Source: a virus. From it: a stretch of DNA of 64,000 nucleotides. A model generated the notes under the pieces. The model worked only from the letters and a program-made list of their open reading frames with translations. It was not told the DNA's origin and made no database searches. The position numbers and the translations under genes were made by a program. The DNA is taken from the IMG/VR virus record IMGVR_UViG_3300043411_001114, positions 48,367 through 112,366 of that record. One strand, written 5' to 3'. Of this stretch, positions 9,984 to 29,257 are shown piece by piece. Positions within the stretch are counted from its first letter, which is position 1; each line of letters opens with the position of its first letter.

Positions 9984-12914
9984 TTATTTGGCCTCCCCGA
10001 ACAGCAGCCATTCGAGATTCTTGGCCTCATCCGGGGTCTTAGAAGAACTATAGCTCAATTCCTCGCTGGTCCCCTGTACTGCGGCGGCCAGCGCGCGGCG
10101 CTCGTTGCATATCTGCCATATCCGTTCCTCCACCGAGTCCTCGGTGATGAGAACGTAGGCGGTCAAACCGTCCAGGTGGGAGTCTGTGCGGTCGATGCGG
10201 GCATTGCGCTGGGCCAGGTCGTCGTAGGAGTAGGTGGGGTCGACGCTGATGACATACCGGGCCTCCTGCAGGTTCAAGCCGTAGGTTCCCGCATCGGAGG
10301 AGCAGAAGGCGGTGATGTCGGGATCGGCCTTGAAGCGATCCTGAGCGGCCTGGGACTCCGCTGCGGACTGTCCGGTGGCGTAGTGCAGAACGTGCGGCAC
10401 CGTTAGATGTGGGGCCAGCGGGAGCAGTCCCAGTTCCGTCCAGTGGCAGAAGACCACCGCCTTGTCCTGAGCCTCCCGGACACCCTCCAGCATCCCGTTG
10501 AGGACCTCGATCTTCCCCGAGTGGGTGGCATCGAACAGGTCGGGCCGTTGGGCGAGAATGTCGGCGGCGACCTCGCTCTTCGAGTTGAGCAGCGCCGCCG
10601 GGTTGATGCAGGCGATCCGGGCCGCCAGGTAGTGGTGGGCGAGACTCTCGCCCTTATCCCGGGCCTGACGGGCGCTGTCGAGGATCAGGCCGAGCAACTG
10701 CTCGGTGCCCGGAGTGGCCTGGACGTACATCGGGATGGTCTCGATGCCCCGGAACTGCTCCTGCACCCCGGGGTCGGTCTTGCGGACAGCCATCGTCCAG
10801 TCGCCGACCCGGTGCCGTATCTCCTGCAGTTTGACGAGGTTCCAGTCGTAGGTGACGAACCCGAAGGATCGACCGGTTCGGGTCTTCATCGGGACATTGC
10901 GAACCCGGTCGGCGTAGCGCTGAATAAAGTCGGTCTTGGTCGATAGCGGGTTGTGCCCCTCCTGGCCGTCGAGGGAGAAGACGTCCCGGTACCGCAGCGG
11001 GTTGCCTCCGACCACGGTGGCACTCATCGGCCACACAATGGCATGACAGGCCCTCACCATCCTGTCGAGCGCCTGGCGGGCCTTGTTGGGGGTCGAGTCG
11101 GTGATCAGCTTGGAAGCCTCGTCAAGCACCCACAAGACCCGCTTCCCGGCAATCAGGGTGATCAAGTCTTCCTCGTCGTGCCAGAGTTTCTCGTAGTTCA
11201 TGACGTAGACCTGGTGACCGGCGGCGTACATCTTGCGGCGCTTGGCCTTGGTGCCGTCAGTGACCACCGCGTCCAGCCCGGCCGGGGCCTGGAAGGTGCG
11301 GCAGAGGTTGATTTTGAGTTTGGACAGCGTGCAGGCGATGACCAGGTCGACGTCGTCGTGATTGAACAACTCCAGGGCACCGGCCCCTGAGCAATGGCTA
11401 TTGTGAGTGACATTATGTCCCCGAGTAACGTAAAGATTGTTCTGAGCGGCTACGGTGATGCACACCTGTTCCTCAGACATACCTTCATCGAAGACGTTGG
11501 AAATGATTTTGTTCGGAATCTGACGCTGCACGGGCGGACAGTAGGCTTGGGCTTTGCGTGATAGCCGGAACGGCATGACGTCAGGCGGAAATACGATGCT
11601 GACACGCCAAGATTGACGACCAGGAATACGATCACCGTTTTTGTCGGTGTACTTGGTGATTCTTCCCGAGGAAATGGTGGCTCTGCCCCGCAGGCCACGA
11701 ACAAGATCAGCCACCTGATCCCGAAGAGCCTCACTGGTGGTGGAAAACTCCACTCCAGTCTTTCCTGAGTAGGCATGGCCATCGGTGTCCAGAAGTCCCT
11801 GGAGTAGGGCTAATCTCTCAGCAGCAGAAGATCGTAAATAGTTCTCGGGAACATGTTTCTCGTAAGAGAATTGTCCCCAAAGACCCATGTCCTTCAAAAC
11901 ACGCCTGATCGAAGCCGGAACCATGGCGACTGCAGTGTGTTCGGTTTCCGTCGCCGTCACACGATTCCATCCGAACTGATCAATAATTTCTTTATCGGTG
12001 TGAATACTGTCAGCTCGGAAACACCCATCTCCAAGAAGAACCCCGAGCATGTAGGGGGGTAGTGGCAAGGATTCTGGAAGCGGCGAAAAATGAACTGTCT
12101 CAAGCGCCGGAATCTGCCAGCGATGCTTTCCCCGTTCGGGCAGGTTGACCATGATTTCTTTGGTGGTGAGAGTTTTCCAAGGAGCCTCTTCGATACGCTC
12201 TTTTCTGGTCGGGTCACTGAGGGAAGGACCACGACGTCGGGTGCTGGATTTTCGTACATTCCAGAGGTGATCTCCGTCGCATCTGACGAAAGTCTTGTCG
12301 TTGAACTCGACGCGATAAACAGAACGCACACCCTGAGGGTGTACTGCAATCACCGAAGTGGCCATGCCGTCTGAGCCAATAACCTGATCGCCGGGCCGCA
12401 AATCCCCCATGGTGCGCCATCCTGTCGGGGTGAGCACAGGCTCACTGACGGGTTCCGCCTTCCCGGACCCGGCCGCCCAATTCCAGAACCAGAACCTGTC
12501 GGTGTTTGTCTGACCGTTCCTGGCCCGCTCCAGCGCCCGGTTCATACTGAACGTCTGGAACGGCTTGAGGGTGTAGCCCTCGATGTCCAGCGGGGCGTTC
12601 CAGCGGGCCACGTCCTCCCGGACGGCCTGCGCCGAGGGTGTCCAGACGGGATGGTAGCCGTCCTTTTCGAGCGCCTCGATGAACTGGTCGGCCAGGTGCA
12701 GGCCGTTGAGGATGAGATACCGGCTCACCCAGTCCTTGTGCCGTTCCAGGAACAGCCCACGGCTGGTCTCGTCCAGCGGTTCGAACGACAGGTTGTCGGG
12801 ATAGTCGGGATGCTGGTCGACCAGGATGATGCGCGATTCGGGGACACCGGAGTCGAGTAGGGCGATCACGTCCCTCTCGGTGGCATCGAGGGTCACGGTG
12901 TCCTGGTCGGTCAT
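9984..12914 (-). CDS. SNF2-like DNA helicase containing an intein
   Basis: The 976-residue product is a superfamily 2 ATPase interrupted by an intein inside its Walker A loop (WAAGSGK, intein, SHCSGAGAL). Other helicase motifs are LWVLDEASKLI (motif II), WPMSATVVGG (III), AGTYGLNLQEARYVISVD (V) and DLAQRNARIDR (VI), matching SWI2/SNF2-type translocases of phages. The mature enzyme would be 623 residues. It cannot bind ATP until the intein is removed, because the P-loop is split between Lys and Ser. It is transcribed leftward with Rha downstream and diverges from the rightward replication genes across 450 bp of folded DNA. Confidence 0.88.
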   Translation of the reverse strand: MTDQDTVTLDATERDVIALLDSGVPESRIILVDQHPDYPDNLSFEPLDETSRGLFLERHKDWVSRYLILNGLHLADQFIEALEKDGYHPVWTPSAQAVREDVARWNAPLDIEGYTLKPFQTFSMNRALERARNGQTNTDRFWFWNWAAGSGKAEPVSEPVLTPTGWRTMGDLRPGDQVIGSDGMATSVIAVHPQGVRSVYRVEFNDKTFVRCDGDHLWNVRKSSTRRRGPSLSDPTRKERIEEAPWKTLTTKEIMVNLPERGKHRWQIPALETVHFSPLPESLPLPPYMLGVLLGDGCFRADSIHTDKEIIDQFGWNRVTATETEHTAVAMVPASIRRVLKDMGLWGQFSYEKHVPENYLRSSAAERLALLQGLLDTDGHAYSGKTGVEFSTTSEALRDQVADLVRGLRGRATISSGRITKYTDKNGDRIPGRQSWRVSIVFPPDVMPFRLSRKAQAYCPPVQRQIPNKIISNVFDEGMSEEQVCITVAAQNNLYVTRGHNVTHNSHCSGAGALELFNHDDVDLVIACTLSKLKINLCRTFQAPAGLDAVVTDGTKAKRRKMYAAGHQVYVMNYEKLWHDEEDLITLIAGKRVLWVLDEASKLITDSTPNKARQALDRMVRACHAIVWPMSATVVGGNPLRYRDVFSLDGQEGHNPLSTKTDFIQRYADRVRNVPMKTRTGRSFGFVTYDWNLVKLQEIRHRVGDWTMAVRKTDPGVQEQFRGIETIPMYVQATPGTEQLLGLILDSARQARDKGESLAHHYLAARIACINPAALLNSKSEVAADILAQRPDLFDATHSGKIEVLNGMLEGVREAQDKAVVFCHWTELGLLPLAPHLTVPHVLHYATGQSAAESQAAQDRFKADPDITAFCSSDAGTYGLNLQEARYVISVDPTYSYDDLAQRNARIDRTDSHLDGLTAYVLITEDSVEERIWQICNERRALAAAVQGTSEELSYSSSKTPDEAKNLEWLLFGEAK
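11400..12458 (-). mobile_element. Class 3-type intein with LAGLIDADG endonuclease in the helicase P-loop
   Basis: The 353-residue intein begins with Ala (AEPVSEPVLTPTGW) instead of Cys or Ser, and ends NVTHN before extein Ser. It carries the three residues that define class 3 inteins: Trp in block B (DGDHLWNV, intein residue 66), Cys in block F (QVCITVAAQNNLYVT, residue 333) and Thr in block G (VTHN, residue 351). In this class the block F Cys replaces the missing N-terminal nucleophile. Two dodecapeptides, YMLGVLLGDGCF and LLQGLLDTDGHA, show a LAGLIDADG endonuclease. Boundaries were fixed by restoring GSGK-S. Confidence 0.88.
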
Positions 12915-22813: not shown

Positions 22814-24211
22814 GTGACTCTCCACCAGCACAGCGAGTTCTCCTTCCTCGATGGCAGGGCCAGGACGATGGAGATCGCCCAGGCAGCCCAGGCCGCCGGG
22901 TACGACTCGGTGGCCATCACCGACCACGACGAGGTCGGTGGCCACATCGACTTCCAGAAATCGTGCAGGAAGGTGGGAATCAAGCCGATCTTCGGCACCG
23001 AGGCCCGCTGGGTACGTTCGATCGGGGCTAGCCGTGAAGCTAAGTCTGCCGGTCGCGACTCGTCGCACATCGTGCTGCTGGCACAGAATCAGACCGGACT
23101 GCGTAACCTGTGGGCCTTGTCTTCGCTGGCCTACGAGCCTCACTACTTCTACGGTAAACCTCAACTCGACGTCGACCTGATGTCTCGTTATTCGGATGGA
23201 CTCTGGGCGAGCGACGGATGCTCACTCACCAGATTTACCGGCTTCGTCAATGACAATGACGAGGATTCGGCCCTGGAGGAGTGGGGTATCCTGCAGGATA
23301 TCTTCGGTGACCGGTTCTACTCCGAGTTGCACACCTTCCAGATCATCGACCCGGTGACTGACGAGGATAAGGCGCTTAACGCCCGCGTCACGGCAATGAA
23401 TCAGGCCAAGATGCGGTTTGCCGAAAAGCGTGACGTCCGGCTGGTCGCCGTCCATGACGCCCACTACGCCTACCGGCACCAGTGGGAGGAACATCGGCTG
23501 GTCTACAACCTGTCCACCCAGGCCTACCGCAAGGATCAGGTCGAGTCCAAGGGCCAGGCCGCCGACTGGCTGATGGACCCCGACGACACGGTGTACTTTC
23601 TGGGCCGTCACGGCATTCCCACCTCGACCGCCCGGTCGGCGATCGCCAACGCCCGCGAGATTTCCGATCTGTGCAACGTCGAGATCAATCCCACCCTGTC
23701 GATGCCGCGCCTGTACCCGTCCGACGCCGAGGACTCGGCGGCCTTCCGCGCCGCGATCGAGGAGGGGTTCCGTCGTTTCGTCGTCGACAAGGGGTTGCCC
23801 GAGGACGTCTACCGCCGCCGTCTGGAGTACGAGTCCGAACTCATCGTCGATCAGGGCATGCCGGGATATTTCAACGTGGTCGCCGATTACGTCCGTAGCG
23901 CCCGGGACGGCACCTACATTCAGTGGGTCGACCGAACCGCCAAACCCAGTCCCTGCCTGTGCGGCCCGGGCCGTGGTTCGGGCGGCGGCTCGCTGGTCAA
24001 CTATGTCCTGGGCATCACCAGCCTCGACCCGATCAAATATGACCTGATGTTCGAGCGGTTCATCAACCCTGATAGGGCGAGCGAAAAGAGAAGAATAGAA
24101 TTAGATTCTGGTGAAGTTCTAGAACTCAATCCAGGTGACTCGGTGCAACTCAGTGATGGTCGCGTTGTTGTGGCGAGGGACCTCAAGGAGGGGGACGATA
24201 TATCTTGCTAG
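22814..24211 (+). CDS. dnaE: DNA polymerase III alpha, N-terminal half with Hint-like tail
   Basis: The 465-residue product holds the PHP domain (TLHQHSEFSFLDG, VAITDHDEVGGHI) and the first palm motif (GRGSGGGSLVNYVLGITSLD), then reaches FERFINPDR, where intact alpha subunits continue to the catalytic PDIDVDF. Instead about 45 residues follow: IELDSGEVLEL, VQLSDGRVVVARDLKEGDD, then a stop. That tail is AT-richer and resembles the second strand block of Hint/intein domains (dG-v-A-dL-eGD), though the usual Cys1 block is absent. The start is GTG 22814; no good ribosome site is visible and a stop lies 12 codons upstream. Confidence 0.85.
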   Translation: MTLHQHSEFSFLDGRARTMEIAQAAQAAGYDSVAITDHDEVGGHIDFQKSCRKVGIKPIFGTEARWVRSIGASREAKSAGRDSSHIVLLAQNQTGLRNLWALSSLAYEPHYFYGKPQLDVDLMSRYSDGLWASDGCSLTRFTGFVNDNDEDSALEEWGILQDIFGDRFYSELHTFQIIDPVTDEDKALNARVTAMNQAKMRFAEKRDVRLVAVHDAHYAYRHQWEEHRLVYNLSTQAYRKDQVESKGQAADWLMDPDDTVYFLGRHGIPTSTARSAIANAREISDLCNVEINPTLSMPRLYPSDAEDSAAFRAAIEEGFRRFVVDKGLPEDVYRRRLEYESELIVDQGMPGYFNVVADYVRSARDGTYIQWVDRTAKPSPCLCGPGRGSGGGSLVNYVLGITSLDPIKYDLMFERFINPDRASEKRRIELDSGEVLELNPGDSVQLSDGRVVVARDLKEGDDISC

Positions 24212-25075
24212 AAAAAGTGAAGAACGAGAAGTTCCGTCGCGCCAAGTGTTTGTTGGTAATAGATCGAGATTGGCTTTCTGAAAAATATCTTGAAGAAAGA
24301 CTCTCTAAGAGGGAGATAGCTAAGCAGGCTGGGTGCGATGTTAGTATTATTACGCGCGAGGTTGTTCGTCATGGGTTTTCAAGAAAAAGACCGGAGTGCA
24401 AGCCTCGAATCATTCTTCCCGACACGGAGTTCAGGGAAGATTATTTGTCCGGAAAACCAATGACAGACATGGCTGTTCGGTTTGGTTGTTCGGAGGACGT
24501 TATCAGACGTGAAGCTCGTAGGTTTGGTCTTCCTCCGAGGAAAAATGTTCCCATTCCTCAGGACCTGGAAGAGCTTTTGGTGGAGCGCAAGTGGTTGTGT
24601 TCCAGAGTTGCACGACATTATCAGGTTTGTGAAGATACCGTCTATAAATGGATAAGAGAAACTGGGCTTAGTGATAGGCACCCAGTCCTTGCCAGGAGGG
24701 GAAGGCGGGGAATCAGGGGTTATCGGCATGATCTAGGCATGAGTTTTCGTAGCCGTTGGGAAGCCAATTACGCCAGAATACTCAATTATGAAGGAATTGT
24801 TTTTGAGTACGAGAAGCATAAAATTGAGGTCGAAAACGGACATAAATACGTTCCCGATTTTCGATTGATGAACGGTACGTTTGTTGAAGTGAAAGGACTT
24901 TCGACCAGAAGTAATTTGTGGAAGTTTGAGGATGCTGTTCGGCGCTATCCAGACAAGAATTTTGTTCTTGTGGACAAGCCTGTTTATAAGATTTTGGAGC
25001 GCGAATATCGCCATCTTCCTGGATGGGAGACCAATGCCTAAGGTTGTTGCGGTTTCTGTTATTCGTACAGGAGAC
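24077..25075 (+). mobile_element. Homing element that splits the polymerase gene
   Basis: About one kilobase of AT-rich sequence lies between the NPDR codons of the N-half and the LPDIDVDF codons of the C-half. It encodes the Hint-like tail, a free-standing endonuclease and a 13-14-residue leader (MPKVVAVSVIRTG) on the C-half. Each frame overlaps the next by a few bases, so three proteins are made where one is expected. Borders are set where base composition and polymerase similarity change. Whether the halves are joined by protein trans-splicing, RNA splicing or only non-covalent assembly cannot be decided from the sequence. Confidence 0.75.
24205..25041 (+). CDS. Free-standing homing endonuclease, three HTH repeats plus PD-(D/E)XK domain
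   Basis: The 278-residue product starts at TTG after AAGGAGG encoded in the upstream Hint-like tail. Three helix-turn-helix repeats follow one another (LSKREIAKQAGCDVSIITRE; PMTDMAVRFGCSEDVIRREA; SRVARHYQVCEDTVYKWIRE). The C-terminal nuclease part reads FRSRWEANYARILNYEGIVF, then YVPDFRL and FVEVKG, a PD-(D/E)XK active site like Vsr-type homing enzymes. It probably cuts polymerase genes that lack the insertion. AT-rich codon use marks it as foreign. Similar endonucleases between halves of split-intein genes are known as fractured genes. Confidence 0.8.
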   Translation: MLEKVKNEKFRRAKCLLVIDRDWLSEKYLEERLSKREIAKQAGCDVSIITREVVRHGFSRKRPECKPRIILPDTEFREDYLSGKPMTDMAVRFGCSEDVIRREARRFGLPPRKNVPIPQDLEELLVERKWLCSRVARHYQVCEDTVYKWIRETGLSDRHPVLARRGRRGIRGYRHDLGMSFRSRWEANYARILNYEGIVFEYEKHKIEVENGHKYVPDFRLMNGTFVEVKGLSTRSNLWKFEDAVRRYPDKNFVLVDKPVYKILEREYRHLPGWETNA

Positions 25076-27187
25076 CTTCCTGACATCGACGTCGACTTCC
25101 AGAAGTCGAAGCGCGGCGACGTCAAGATGTATCTCGGTGCCCGATACGGGCACGACAATGTCTGCTCGATCGGCACCCGCTCCCGCTCTGGCCCCAAGCA
25201 GATGGTCAAAGACCTCGGCCGCGCCCTGAAGATCGACTGGGTCGACATCCAGAAGATCGCCGACCTCATCGGTGAGGTCGACGATATTGAGGCTTCCGAG
25301 GACGATCTTGCCGACGACCTGGCCGCCCCGACCTGGAGCGAGGTGGTGGCCGCCCTCGACTCCGACCTGGCCCCCTGGGCGCGCAAGTACCCCGAACTCT
25401 TCGACCGGCTGGAGAACATGGTCGGCCTGGTGCGTCAGGCCGGGGTGCACGCCGCCGGGGTGGTGGTCAACACCGAACCGCTGCTCGGCAATATCCCGAC
25501 CAGAATCAAAAAAGGCATCCGTTCCACTCAGTTCGACATGCATGAATGCGCTGAACTCGGCGGCGTGAAGGACGACCTGCTGGCCAACAAGGGCCTGGAC
25601 GTCCTCGACGTCGCTCGCACCCTGATCTGGGAGCGGCATCAGGTCTGGCTCGACTATGACGGCTTCGGTTTTGGCATCCCCGAGGGGTGCCCGAAGCATC
25701 GCGTGGTGACCTTCGGCGACGAGCATTACGCCGACCCGGCCATCTGGGAGCAGATCGACCTGGGCATGACCGCCGGTATCTTCCAGATCGGCACCCCGTC
25801 GGGCACCAAGCAGGCGATGCGGTTCAAACCCCGGTCGTTGCCCGAACTGGCCGACCTCGCCTCCATCAACCGTCCCGGCGTGATCCGGGCCGGGCAGTTG
25901 GATCACTACCTCAAGCGCCGTAACGGTGACGAGGACATCACCTACGACCACCCGCTGATGGAGCCGATCACCGCCCGCACGATGGGCATCCTGGTCTACC
26001 AGGAGGACATGATCCGCACCGCCCGCGAACTGGCCGGATTCACCGCCGGTCAGGGCGAGGAACTCCGTAAGGCGATCGGCAAGAAGCTGGCCGACAAGAT
26101 CGCCGAGATCAAGCCCCGTTTCATCGAGGGTTGTATGGCCAATCCGGACTTCACCGGCCCGGGCGGCACCAGGTCTACCGCCATGAAGATTTGGGCCTCG
26201 CTGGAAGCCGCCGGAGCCTACAGCTTCAATAAAGCCCACGCCACCGGGTACGCGATGCAGCCGTGCTGGGAGATATGGACCAAACACCACTACTTCGATG
26301 AGTTCATCGTCGCCTGCCTGACGGTAATGCCGGAGAAGACCGTCCAGCTGGTGCGGGAGTGCCGGAAAAAGGGTCGTCCCATCCTGCCCCCCGACATCAA
26401 CACCTCGGGCGAACACTTCACCTTGACCGACGCCGGTATCCGATACGGGCTGACCGATATTCGGGGGGTCGGCAAGGCCGCCGCCGTTGACATTCTGGCC
26501 AATCGCCCTTACCGGGGCATCGGTGACTACTTGCATCGCACCCACCCCAACAAGGGCGGTAAGAAGGGGGTCATCGACTCGCTGGTGAAGGTGGGGGCCT
26601 TCGACTCCATCGCTCACGGGATGGACCGTCAGGCCCTTCTGGACGAGGTCTACTACCACCGGGCCGGGCTGGAGGTCTCGCCCAACAAGTGGGGGAAACT
26701 CGGCCAGGACGAGAGGGACGCCATCGTCGCCTCCAAGTGGGACAAGAACCCCGACGACTACCCGGTGTTCCCCTTCGGGGACGAGAAGTTCATTGTCGCC
26801 CTGGAGACCGAACTGCTGGGCACCCACGTCAGTATCGACCCGATGGCTCCGTATGCGGCCATGATCGAGGCTGAGTGCATCTCACACCCTGCGGAGGTCG
26901 ATGACTACGACACCTCCTCCCTGATCGCCATCGGTGGCGAACTGGTCAAGGTCAAGCAGCACAAGCAGCGCAACGGCAAGGACATGGCGTTCCTCGGCAT
27001 CCGGTGGAATGAGGAGGACTTCGACGTCGTCGCCTTCGCCGACTCGTGGGAGGCTAATCGCGCCATGCTGCAGGAGACCGGGGTGCCTGTCGTCTGCGAG
27101 GCCATCAAGCTGCCCGGCAAGGGTTGTCTGCTCAGTCAGGTCATCCGTCTGGACTGGATGTGTGAAGAATCGAAAACAGGAGAATGA
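25034..27187 (+). CDS. dnaE: DNA polymerase III alpha, C-terminal half
   Basis: The 717-residue product starts at ATG 25034 (GGGAG upstream). After a 13-residue AT-rich leader it continues GDLPDIDVDFQKSKRGDV, which contains the catalytic aspartates, then fingers and helix-hairpin-helix parts (LADLASINRPGVIRAGQLDH, YQEDMIRTARELAGFTAGQG, FNKAHATGYAMQ, YGLTDIRGVGKAAA) and an OB-like end (LVKVKQHKQRNGKDMAFLGI). The PHP domain and the first palm motif are on the separate N-half, so both are needed. The end overlaps the recombinase start. Confidence 0.88.
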   Translation: MPKVVAVSVIRTGDLPDIDVDFQKSKRGDVKMYLGARYGHDNVCSIGTRSRSGPKQMVKDLGRALKIDWVDIQKIADLIGEVDDIEASEDDLADDLAAPTWSEVVAALDSDLAPWARKYPELFDRLENMVGLVRQAGVHAAGVVVNTEPLLGNIPTRIKKGIRSTQFDMHECAELGGVKDDLLANKGLDVLDVARTLIWERHQVWLDYDGFGFGIPEGCPKHRVVTFGDEHYADPAIWEQIDLGMTAGIFQIGTPSGTKQAMRFKPRSLPELADLASINRPGVIRAGQLDHYLKRRNGDEDITYDHPLMEPITARTMGILVYQEDMIRTARELAGFTAGQGEELRKAIGKKLADKIAEIKPRFIEGCMANPDFTGPGGTRSTAMKIWASLEAAGAYSFNKAHATGYAMQPCWEIWTKHHYFDEFIVACLTVMPEKTVQLVRECRKKGRPILPPDINTSGEHFTLTDAGIRYGLTDIRGVGKAAAVDILANRPYRGIGDYLHRTHPNKGGKKGVIDSLVKVGAFDSIAHGMDRQALLDEVYYHRAGLEVSPNKWGKLGQDERDAIVASKWDKNPDDYPVFPFGDEKFIVALETELLGTHVSIDPMAPYAAMIEAECISHPAEVDDYDTSSLIAIGGELVKVKQHKQRNGKDMAFLGIRWNEEDFDVVAFADSWEANRAMLQETGVPVVCEAIKLPGKGCLLSQVIRLDWMCEESKTGE

Positions 27188-28287: not shown

Positions 28288-28781
28288 CGGTTGGTTGGGT
28301 TCTTTCACACCGGGCTGATCCCGAGGTTGTCCCTATGGCCGACCGTCACTACAACCGTCAGAAGATTGGTAGTCCGCAATTCGTGCCGCCGGGCCGGTGT
28401 CATGTCCTCAAGATCGGCACCGCAGAACAGTTGAGAACTCCCGATTCCGGAGGGGCGTTCTGGGTAACCTCCTATCCTTTCGCTGAATATGTCAAGCATG
28501 CCTGGGCGGGTGCCTGGGTATGTTCGGCTTTCAGGAATGAGGGTGCCGGTGTTTCTTCGGAACTGATTAAGGGAGCGGTGTTGTCGACTCGATCGAAGTG
28601 GGAGGTTCCTGAGTTGGGGATGGTGTCTTTTATTGACCCGTCAAAAGTTCAGCCGAGACCGATAAGGGGTCGAAAGACGTGGGGGCACTCCTGGTTTGAG
28701 GCAGGGTTTTCCCATGTCGGATACACCAAGGCCGGTTTGTGGGTTTTCCAGATTCTTCCCGATCGCATTGGGGCACTGTGA
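28284..28781 (+). CDS. Conserved actinobacterial/phage protein of unknown function (165 aa)
   Basis: The product carries ADRHYNRQKIGSPQFVPPG, AEYVKHAWAGAWVCSAFRN and HSWFEAGFSHVGYTKAGLWV. I recognise these as the signature of a family common in actinobacteria and their phages and often left unannotated; the order suggests an acetyltransferase-like fold, which I cannot confirm. GTG start overlapping the RecA stop; an ATG at MADRHYNRQ is the alternative. GC content falls in the middle of the gene. Confidence 0.6.
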   Translation: MTVGWVLSHRADPEVVPMADRHYNRQKIGSPQFVPPGRCHVLKIGTAEQLRTPDSGGAFWVTSYPFAEYVKHAWAGAWVCSAFRNEGAGVSSELIKGAVLSTRSKWEVPELGMVSFIDPSKVQPRPIRGRKTWGHSWFEAGFSHVGYTKAGLWVFQILPDRIGAL

Positions 28782-29257
28782 GGGCCGTGGAGCCGGGCTG
28801 GGATGCACGGTTCTGGGCCAAGGTTCAGAAGACCGATGGCTGCTGGCTCTGGACTGGCCATGTCACCCCCGAGGGTTATGGTCGGTTTTCTCGCCAGCGC
28901 CGCCTGGTCGGCCCGCACAGGCTTTCCTACGAGATGGTTCATGGTCCTATCCCTGACGGCATGCAGGTAGACCATCACCACACCTGCCCCAAGAACTGCG
29001 TCAACCCAGACCATCTCCGCCTGGCCACCCAGAAGCAGAACATGGAGAACCTGAATGGCGCGACGGCCCGGAGCAAGAGTGGAGTTAGAGGCGTCTGGTG
29101 GAACGAACAGCGCCAGCGGTGGTGTGCCCAGATTTGTCACAACTACAAGATGATTCACGTCGGTCGGTATCTCACCCTGGAGGAAGCCAAGGCTGCTGTG
29201 GTCGCCAAACGCAACGAGCTTTTCACTCACAGCGACATGGACACGGGGAGCAGGTAA
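28778..29257 (+). CDS. HNH endonuclease with AP2-like domain
   Basis: The 159-residue product has an HNH nuclease core: KTDGCWLWTGHVTPEGYGRF, HRLSYEMVHGPIP, QVDHHHTCPKNCVNPDHLRL. An AP2/ERF-like DNA-binding part follows (GVRGVWWNEQRQRWCAQI ... HVGRYLTLEEAKAAV). This is a common free-standing homing endonuclease layout in phages. It sits between overlapping genes without obvious damage to either. Confidence 0.85.
   Translation: MRAVEPGWDARFWAKVQKTDGCWLWTGHVTPEGYGRFSRQRRLVGPHRLSYEMVHGPIPDGMQVDHHHTCPKNCVNPDHLRLATQKQNMENLNGATARSKSGVRGVWWNEQRQRWCAQICHNYKMIHVGRYLTLEEAKAAVVAKRNELFTHSDMDTGSR

Follow-up and report, generated by a model that had tools for sequence, protein, structure and literature searches.

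We analysed a 64,000-nucleotide stretch of viral DNA (the window), which corresponds to positions 48367-112366 of the 112-kb IMG/VR virus contig IMGVR_UViG_3300043411_001114, a single metagenomic sequence. In this stretch, a DnaE-type polymerase (DNA polymerase III alpha) is encoded as two open reading frames (ORFs), an N-half (22814-24211, 465 aa) and a C-half (25034-27187, 717 aa). The N-half matched PF02811 (1e-34) and positions 4-100 of the 260 positions of PF07733; the C-half matched positions 100-260 of the same family, together with PF17657 and PF14579. The gene is broken in a conserved motif, its two parts share a single locus, and the break point, NPDR/PDIDVDF (slashes mark junctions here and below), adjoins the active site. 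Uninterrupted relatives, 60-74% identical to the polymerase part of the N-half, have a single gene that reads FINPDR-PD[Y/F]-PDIDVDF; the polymerase part of the C-half is 58% identical to the DnaE of Bxz1-type mycobacteriophages. Because these relatives read uninterrupted across the site, the bounds of the insert could be set, and the break that a first-pass annotation of the window had placed between FINPDR and LPDIDVDF was borne out (Table 1).

The reading frames of the two halves stay open throughout, for about 1,150 aa, and retain the catalytic residues. No second or intact DnaE was found on the contig of 112 kb, although its sequence may be incomplete. With two complete ORFs, an endonuclease gene between them and no intact copy on the contig, the locus has the make-up of a gene in pieces. 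The GC content of the insert is 0.46, and that of third codon positions is 0.43-0.44 in the tail and the endonuclease gene versus 0.82-0.85 in the polymerase cores. The TTG start of the endonuclease overlaps the N-half stop (TAG, 24209-24211), and the ATG of the C-half overlaps the endonuclease stop; the three overlapping reading frames are probably translationally coupled.

Table 1. Features of the two-piece dnaE locus, in window coordinates.
Feature	Coordinates	Strand	Content or basis
DnaE N-half, polymerase part	22814..24076	+	PHP domain and first part of the palm; ends FERFINPDR
Whole insert	24077..~25069	+	993 bp; DNA comparison with uninterrupted L003, L006 and L011
Tail of N-half, Hint-derived by alignment	24077..24208	+	44 residues, ASEKRRIELDSGEVLELNPGDSVQLSDGRVVVARDLKEGDDISC; 24.1 bits against homologous tails
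Shine-Dalgarno of endonuclease, AAGGAGG	24185..24191	+	Sequence; inside the tail codons for LKEG
Free-standing endonuclease gene	24205..25041	+	TTG start; overlaps N-half stop
Likely ribosome binding site of C-half, GGGAG	25025..25029	+	Sequence
Leader of C-half	25034..25072	+	13 residues, MPKVVAVSVIRTG; position and comparison with the leaders of phiST, Larrie, L194 and L196
DnaE C-half, polymerase part	25073..27187	+	From DL-PDIDVDF: catalytic aspartates, fingers, HHH

The gene that separates the two halves encodes three helix-turn-helix (HTH) units at about residues 19-63, 75-113 and 123-155 (HTH_28, HTH_23 and PHROG HTH-type matches), followed at residues 178-238 by a T7 endonuclease I-like PD-(D/E)XK domain (Phage_endo_I, PF05367, 2.2e-10; 5e-7 against T7 endonuclease I structures with phmmer). 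These matches agree with the earlier description of a TTG-start endonuclease with three HTH repeats and a PD-(D/E)XK domain. No close relative of the full protein was detected in viral or genome collections, and no relative was found in cellular genomes; the relatives that were recovered are ordinary phage endonuclease I or resolvase genes, in contexts unlike that of a two-piece DnaE. The endonuclease probably mobilizes the insert through cleavage of uninterrupted dnaE genes at the break site.

To characterize the 44 residues that follow NPDR in the N-half, we compared them with known families and with the tails of other two-piece polymerases. A first lead came from phrog_13169, an apparent family of polymerase N-halves, whose score rose by 8.7 bits when the tail was included. 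When the tail alone was scanned against Pfam, PHROG and NCBIfam, no intein family passed; on the contig as a whole, TIGR01445 detected no intein N-terminus, and TIGR01443 matched only the intein of a helicase gene described below. A hidden Markov model (HMM) built from the tails of Cellulophaga phage phiST, Tenacibaculum phage Larrie, L194, L195 and L196, with the window tail excluded, gave 24.1 bits, a score reached by none of 20,000 shuffles and by none of 6,175 real 44-mers from the window. By Smith-Waterman local alignment to the phiST tail, none of 5,000 shuffles scored as well, and against canonical N-inteins alone the window tail obtained 9.3 bits (0 of 4,000 shuffles). The tails of the remnant class aligned with canonical N-inteins in hhalign with a probability of 86.7%, an E-value of 4e-6 and a score of 34, the maximum among 200 column shuffles being 18; the canonical profile comprised literature inteins and the canonical inteins found in this analysis. 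The profile comparison suggested by the first-pass annotation failed with the general intein families and succeeded with the HMM of homologous tails.

The tail begins with ASEKRR and is homologous solely to the distal half of an N-intein. Block A, with its nucleophile, is absent, and the Thr-x-x-His of block B is replaced by NPGD. Since the KEG codons double as the Shine-Dalgarno of the endonuclease, the KEG motif is by itself poor evidence of Hint homology; the match spans about 36 residues and extends beyond the KEGD motif. Judged by this similarity, which lies far above chance, the tail is a real Hint (intein) remnant, in keeping with the earlier description of a segment resembling Hint block B that lacks the Cys1 block. 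The C-half likewise has the short extra segment that had been noted, 13 residues (MPKVVAVSVIRTG) followed by DLPDID; neither blocks F and G, nor a terminal His-Asn, nor a Cys, Ser or Thr at +1 were found in it. By its position, this leader may correspond to the strand with which a C-intein begins.

A search of viral contigs for intein junctions at PDIDxDF yielded a related DnaE (L155) with a canonical, intact-looking split intein at exactly the break site of the window. Its N side reads ..LLFSRFLSIER/CLPKETK...GDEIIEIEND before the stop codon, and its C side, ending in ..FLTHN/S, reads ...HEFYMSQNESDYFLTHN/SDYPDIDIDF. Upstream of this fractured gene, an ORF at 8965-10302 of L155 combines a dCMP deaminase domain with repeats that resemble zinc fingers and with a weak match to a TnsA-like nuclease. 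Further canonical split inteins, which form a second group, occupy the break site in L172-L186, with the junction HN/S[PSN]PD[IL]DIDF.

Searching from the N side, we found more than 20 other two-piece phage DnaEs with tails at this site that are devoid of splicing residues. In the 'PER[C/A/G]GL' class (L156-L171, Bacteroides phage BS-TP1 and others), a tail of about 80 aa follows PER, starts with Cys, Ala or Gly and lacks TxxH, and the leader of 33 aa lacks His-Asn. In the minimal class (phiST, Larrie, L194, L195 and L196), tails are 52-56 aa and leaders 17-18 aa long. Across the relatives, the first position of the tail varies among Cys, Ala, Gly, Met and Thr. The cultured members are BS-TP1, in which a helicase gene separates the halves, and phiST and Larrie, which have no endonuclease gene between them; Cellulophaga phages phi13:1 and phi19:2 gave tblastn matches of the same extent. 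In L162, an HNH-type endonuclease ORF was read from the sequence among the genes between the halves. The DnaE gene of Chryseobacterium phage MA9V-3 is uninterrupted, and scans with the junction region returned almost solely uninterrupted genes. The uninterrupted DnaE of Bacteroides phage SJC03 (L191, 4324-8148) has an insertion of about 62 aa at the break site of the window (..IAAKYFEGDELGGGI..), possibly a fused fossil of the tail and leader.

The remnant tails were modelled with AlphaFold2 from an alignment of remnant tails only. The model is a beta domain with a pLDDT of 75-81 over residues 31-70, and its best-probability Foldseek matches were inteins and Hedgehog Hint domains (1.3-1.6 A over 42 columns; 5o9j, probability 0.84), with E-values that are weak because the piece is short. 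In a read-through model of the L195 tail and leader, whose alignment contained no intein, pLDDT was 91-95 in the tail, about 91 in the leader strand and below 50 over much of the linker. Its best match, which covered both tail and leader, was the Pyrococcus PolII mini-intein, with a Z of 9.9 and 1.9 A over 66 residues; the first 20 structural matches were all inteins or other Hint-family domains, and the first unrelated row had a Z of 3.5. A Hint-like fold is thus predicted for the relatives' tails, and the structure prediction of tail plus leader proposed in the first-pass annotation, run on relatives only, gave a partial Hint fold for L195.

We also examined selection and charge. In closely related class-b pairs, with two saturated between-class comparisons left out, the ratio of nonsynonymous to synonymous substitution rates (dN/dS) was 0.09-0.35 in the tail versus 0.01-0.08 in the adjoining polymerase core; therefore, the tails are constrained by purifying selection, less so than the core. 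Net charge ranged from -3 to -17 in tails and from 0 to +5 in leaders, the values for the window being -5 and +2. Natural split inteins are described as assembling by an initial mutual capture of the acidic distal N-intein and the basic C-intein (Shah et al. 2013, cited in PMC11766414).

The two-piece gene, the homology of its tail to Hint remnants, the absence of splicing residues, the parallels in cultured phages and the selection acting on the relatives' tails were all obtained by computation; docking of the halves, polymerase activity and homing are inferred. The insert is likely what is left of a split intein, a docking module that holds a two-subunit polymerase together non-covalently, with the endonuclease still in place. 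A fractured-gene cassette, consisting of a split intein and a free-standing endonuclease, would have entered dnaE at its most conserved motif, and splicing would have become dispensable once the halves could assemble. The extein-proximal catalytic parts (N1 with block A; C2 with blocks F and G) would then have been lost, and the inner capture parts kept, the tail being the acidic distal N-intein and the leader the first basic strand of the C-intein. These remnants probably pair as a partial Hint fold that makes no peptide bond, so that the polymerase halves would meet just before the catalytic PDIDVD strand and the active site would be rebuilt from two chains. The presence of the endonuclease in the window versus its absence in phiST and Larrie suggests that the window represents a younger or still mobile stage; the window insert and those of the Bacteroidetes phages may either descend from a common element or have arisen separately from split inteins at the same site.

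Several points weigh against a docking module. The halves could associate through polymerase surfaces alone, and the direct homology of the window tail to canonical inteins, at 9.3 bits, is modest. At 13 aa, the leader does not suffice for a homology test of its own; leaders of the class compared with canonical C-inteins gave p ~0.05, 10 of 200 nulls being as good, and we claim no homology for them, so that the assignment of the leader rests on its position and on the structural model. The models describe the tails of relatives rather than the halves of the window, and in that of tail plus leader the two segments were joined by an artificial read-through linker, while its small alignment contained the window tail along with other remnant tails. 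Because the window insert is a single sequence, selection was measured on relatives only. Finally, the class-b tails were first collected with a pattern that required Cys after ER, which biases the counts of the residue at that position.

The same locus could instead be a plain gene in pieces, in which an endonuclease cassette split dnaE, ordinary polymerase surfaces reassemble the halves, and the tail and leader are scars that supply ribosome binding sites. Such splits have precedents without intein tails in the NrdA of phage Aeh1 and in gp43A/B (PMC2988022), DnaE itself is split elsewhere in Krampusvirus Rie18 and Arthrobacter phage Wollypog, and the LKEG codons of the tail do form the Shine-Dalgarno of the endonuclease. 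However, the relatives' tails are under purifying selection and persist in phiST and Larrie, where no endonuclease gene lies between the halves and a scar has no reason to stay; moreover, tail and leader are modelled together as a partial Hint fold and carry opposite charges. We therefore regard this explanation as unlikely. That the insert killed the polymerase, or that the contig is chimeric or carries deletions, so that nothing functional is made, would be compatible with a single metagenomic contig, but it is very improbable: the frames are open, the catalytic residues are retained, and neither the ribosome binding sites nor the overlaps are damaged. The contig has no other DnaE, and independent genomes, those of cultured phages among them, share this architecture.

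Explanations that restore a continuous product fared worse still. The first-pass annotation had considered minimal trans-splicing, which by a non-standard route would join NPDR to the PDIDVDF half, and canonical split inteins do occur at this very site. Yet block A, the first nucleophile with its fold, the Thr and His of block B, the terminal His-Asn and the Cys, Ser or Thr at +1 are all missing, for which reason protein splicing of any known class was excluded on sequence grounds; in relatives, even position 1 is variable. Splicing of this kind is extremely improbable. Phage polymerase genes often hold introns with endonuclease genes, and a self-splicing intron that removes the insert from the mRNA had also been raised. 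The covariance check proposed for it gave no intron match in Rfam at E-values up to 10, only a chance lncRNA match, although a divergent core could escape such a search. The endonuclease stop is separated from the 3' junction by just 28 nt, and the junction bases contain no in-frame U.G/omega-G group I splice sites: a codon-final T at 24070 or 24073 would have to be matched by a G preceding the exon-2 codon at 25064, 25067, 25070 or 25073, and none of these bases is G. No GUGYG start of a group II intron was read at the junction, and the tail is homologous to protein. The probability of an intron is therefore close to nil. Of the possibilities put forward earlier, the evidence favours a decayed split intein that no longer splices but whose halves still assemble: a canonical split intein occupies the same position in L155, and splicing-incapable remnants are conserved there in many phages.

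Fractured genes with split inteins and a free-standing endonuclease have been described by Dassa et al. 2009 (PMC2677866, cited in PMC11766414). Like these genes, and like L155 and L009, the polymerase gene of the window is broken at a catalytic motif that is conserved, and a free-standing endonuclease separates an N-half with a tail from a C-half with a leader; the split intein of L155 has an identical insertion site. The similarity to fractured genes that had been proposed therefore holds for the split motif and the endonuclease and fails for the N- and C-intein splicing blocks, since the intein of the window amounts to only 44 + 13 residues and all splicing residues are missing. In the published cases, the endonuclease reportedly belongs to the Vsr-like family, whereas that of the window is T7 endonuclease I-like with HTH units. 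Activity without splicing is on record for the split NrdA of Aeh1 (nrdA/mobE) and for gp43A/gp43B of Aeromonas phage 25 (PMC2988022). As in the window, an endonuclease gene is associated with a split essential gene; the two polypeptides reassemble without splicing, as those of the window would, but their extra tails are not described as intein-derived, whereas the window tail is a Hint remnant common to many two-piece DnaEs. Nearest in form are phiST (gp044/gp045) and Larrie, with the same break point, an acidic Hint-like tail, a short basic leader and no splicing residues; unlike the window, they lack an endonuclease between the halves and belong to another phage and polymerase lineage. Their halves are annotated merely as two DNA polymerase III alpha subunits. 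The arrangement also recalls split-intein capture, in which residues 51-102 of the Npu DnaE intein meet the cationic IntC (Shah et al. 2013, as recounted in PMC11766414): the distal N-intein and proximal C-intein are again acidic and basic, but in the window no collapse to a catalytic Hint domain and no splicing would follow, and the halves would stay non-covalent.

Other inteins and interrupted genes were noticed in the course of the analysis. Within the window, a helicase gene (9984-12914, minus strand) contains an intein directly after the P-loop (WNWAAGSGK/AEPVSEP...VTHN/S). This intein starts with Ala, has Trp in block B (GDHLW) and Cys in block F (EEQVCITV), and includes a LAGLIDADG domain (PF14528); by these features it looks like a class 3 intein. 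A short distance downstream of the polymerase and recombinase genes lies an HNH-type endonuclease-like ORF (28739-29257, plus strand). In L012 (6007-8298), DnaE is split by a canonical split intein at GPGRG/S with no endonuclease, and the near-identical sister L008 is uninterrupted; in L009 (5983-10985), the split intein lies in the fingers (GFNKSLQ/ANETIN ... LLTSN/S), and a free-standing, apparently Vsr-like endonuclease is found between the halves. DnaE is in pieces at other points in the cultured phages Wollypog (L147, 2014-5890), with an HNH endonuclease gene between the pieces, and Microbacterium phage Rie18 (L062, 3992-7343), with no endonuclease. In Mammaliicoccus phage phi127 (L063, 2977-5258, with L064), a GIY-YIG-like endonuclease gene interrupts DnaE near the break site of the window, and in Alicyclobacillus phage MMB025 (L053, 1181-5543) an endonuclease gene with untranslated flanks does so further downstream. 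No intron was found in these two interrupted polymerases, for phi127 by the Rfam gathering thresholds.

A search of the open-access literature returned no account of splicing-dead split inteins acting as a docking module, which is not proof of novelty. Inteins are usually viewed as working self-splicing parasites or as elements nearing loss. The split intein considered here seems to have been retained as a clasp after splicing was lost, in a replicative polymerase and in several phage lineages, including some that can be grown. In a wider sense, and as a tentative proposal that we put at somewhat less than even, a mobile endonuclease cassette may live in an essential polymerase gene with neither RNA nor protein splicing by means of a splicing-dead Hint clasp, a third way beside introns and inteins that may have become fixed as a two-subunit DnaE in whole phage lineages. 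The system opens two questions to direct test: whether splicing-dead Hint fragments can act as natural tags for heterodimers, and whether two chains that meet immediately ahead of the catalytic aspartates can reconstitute the active site of a DnaE.

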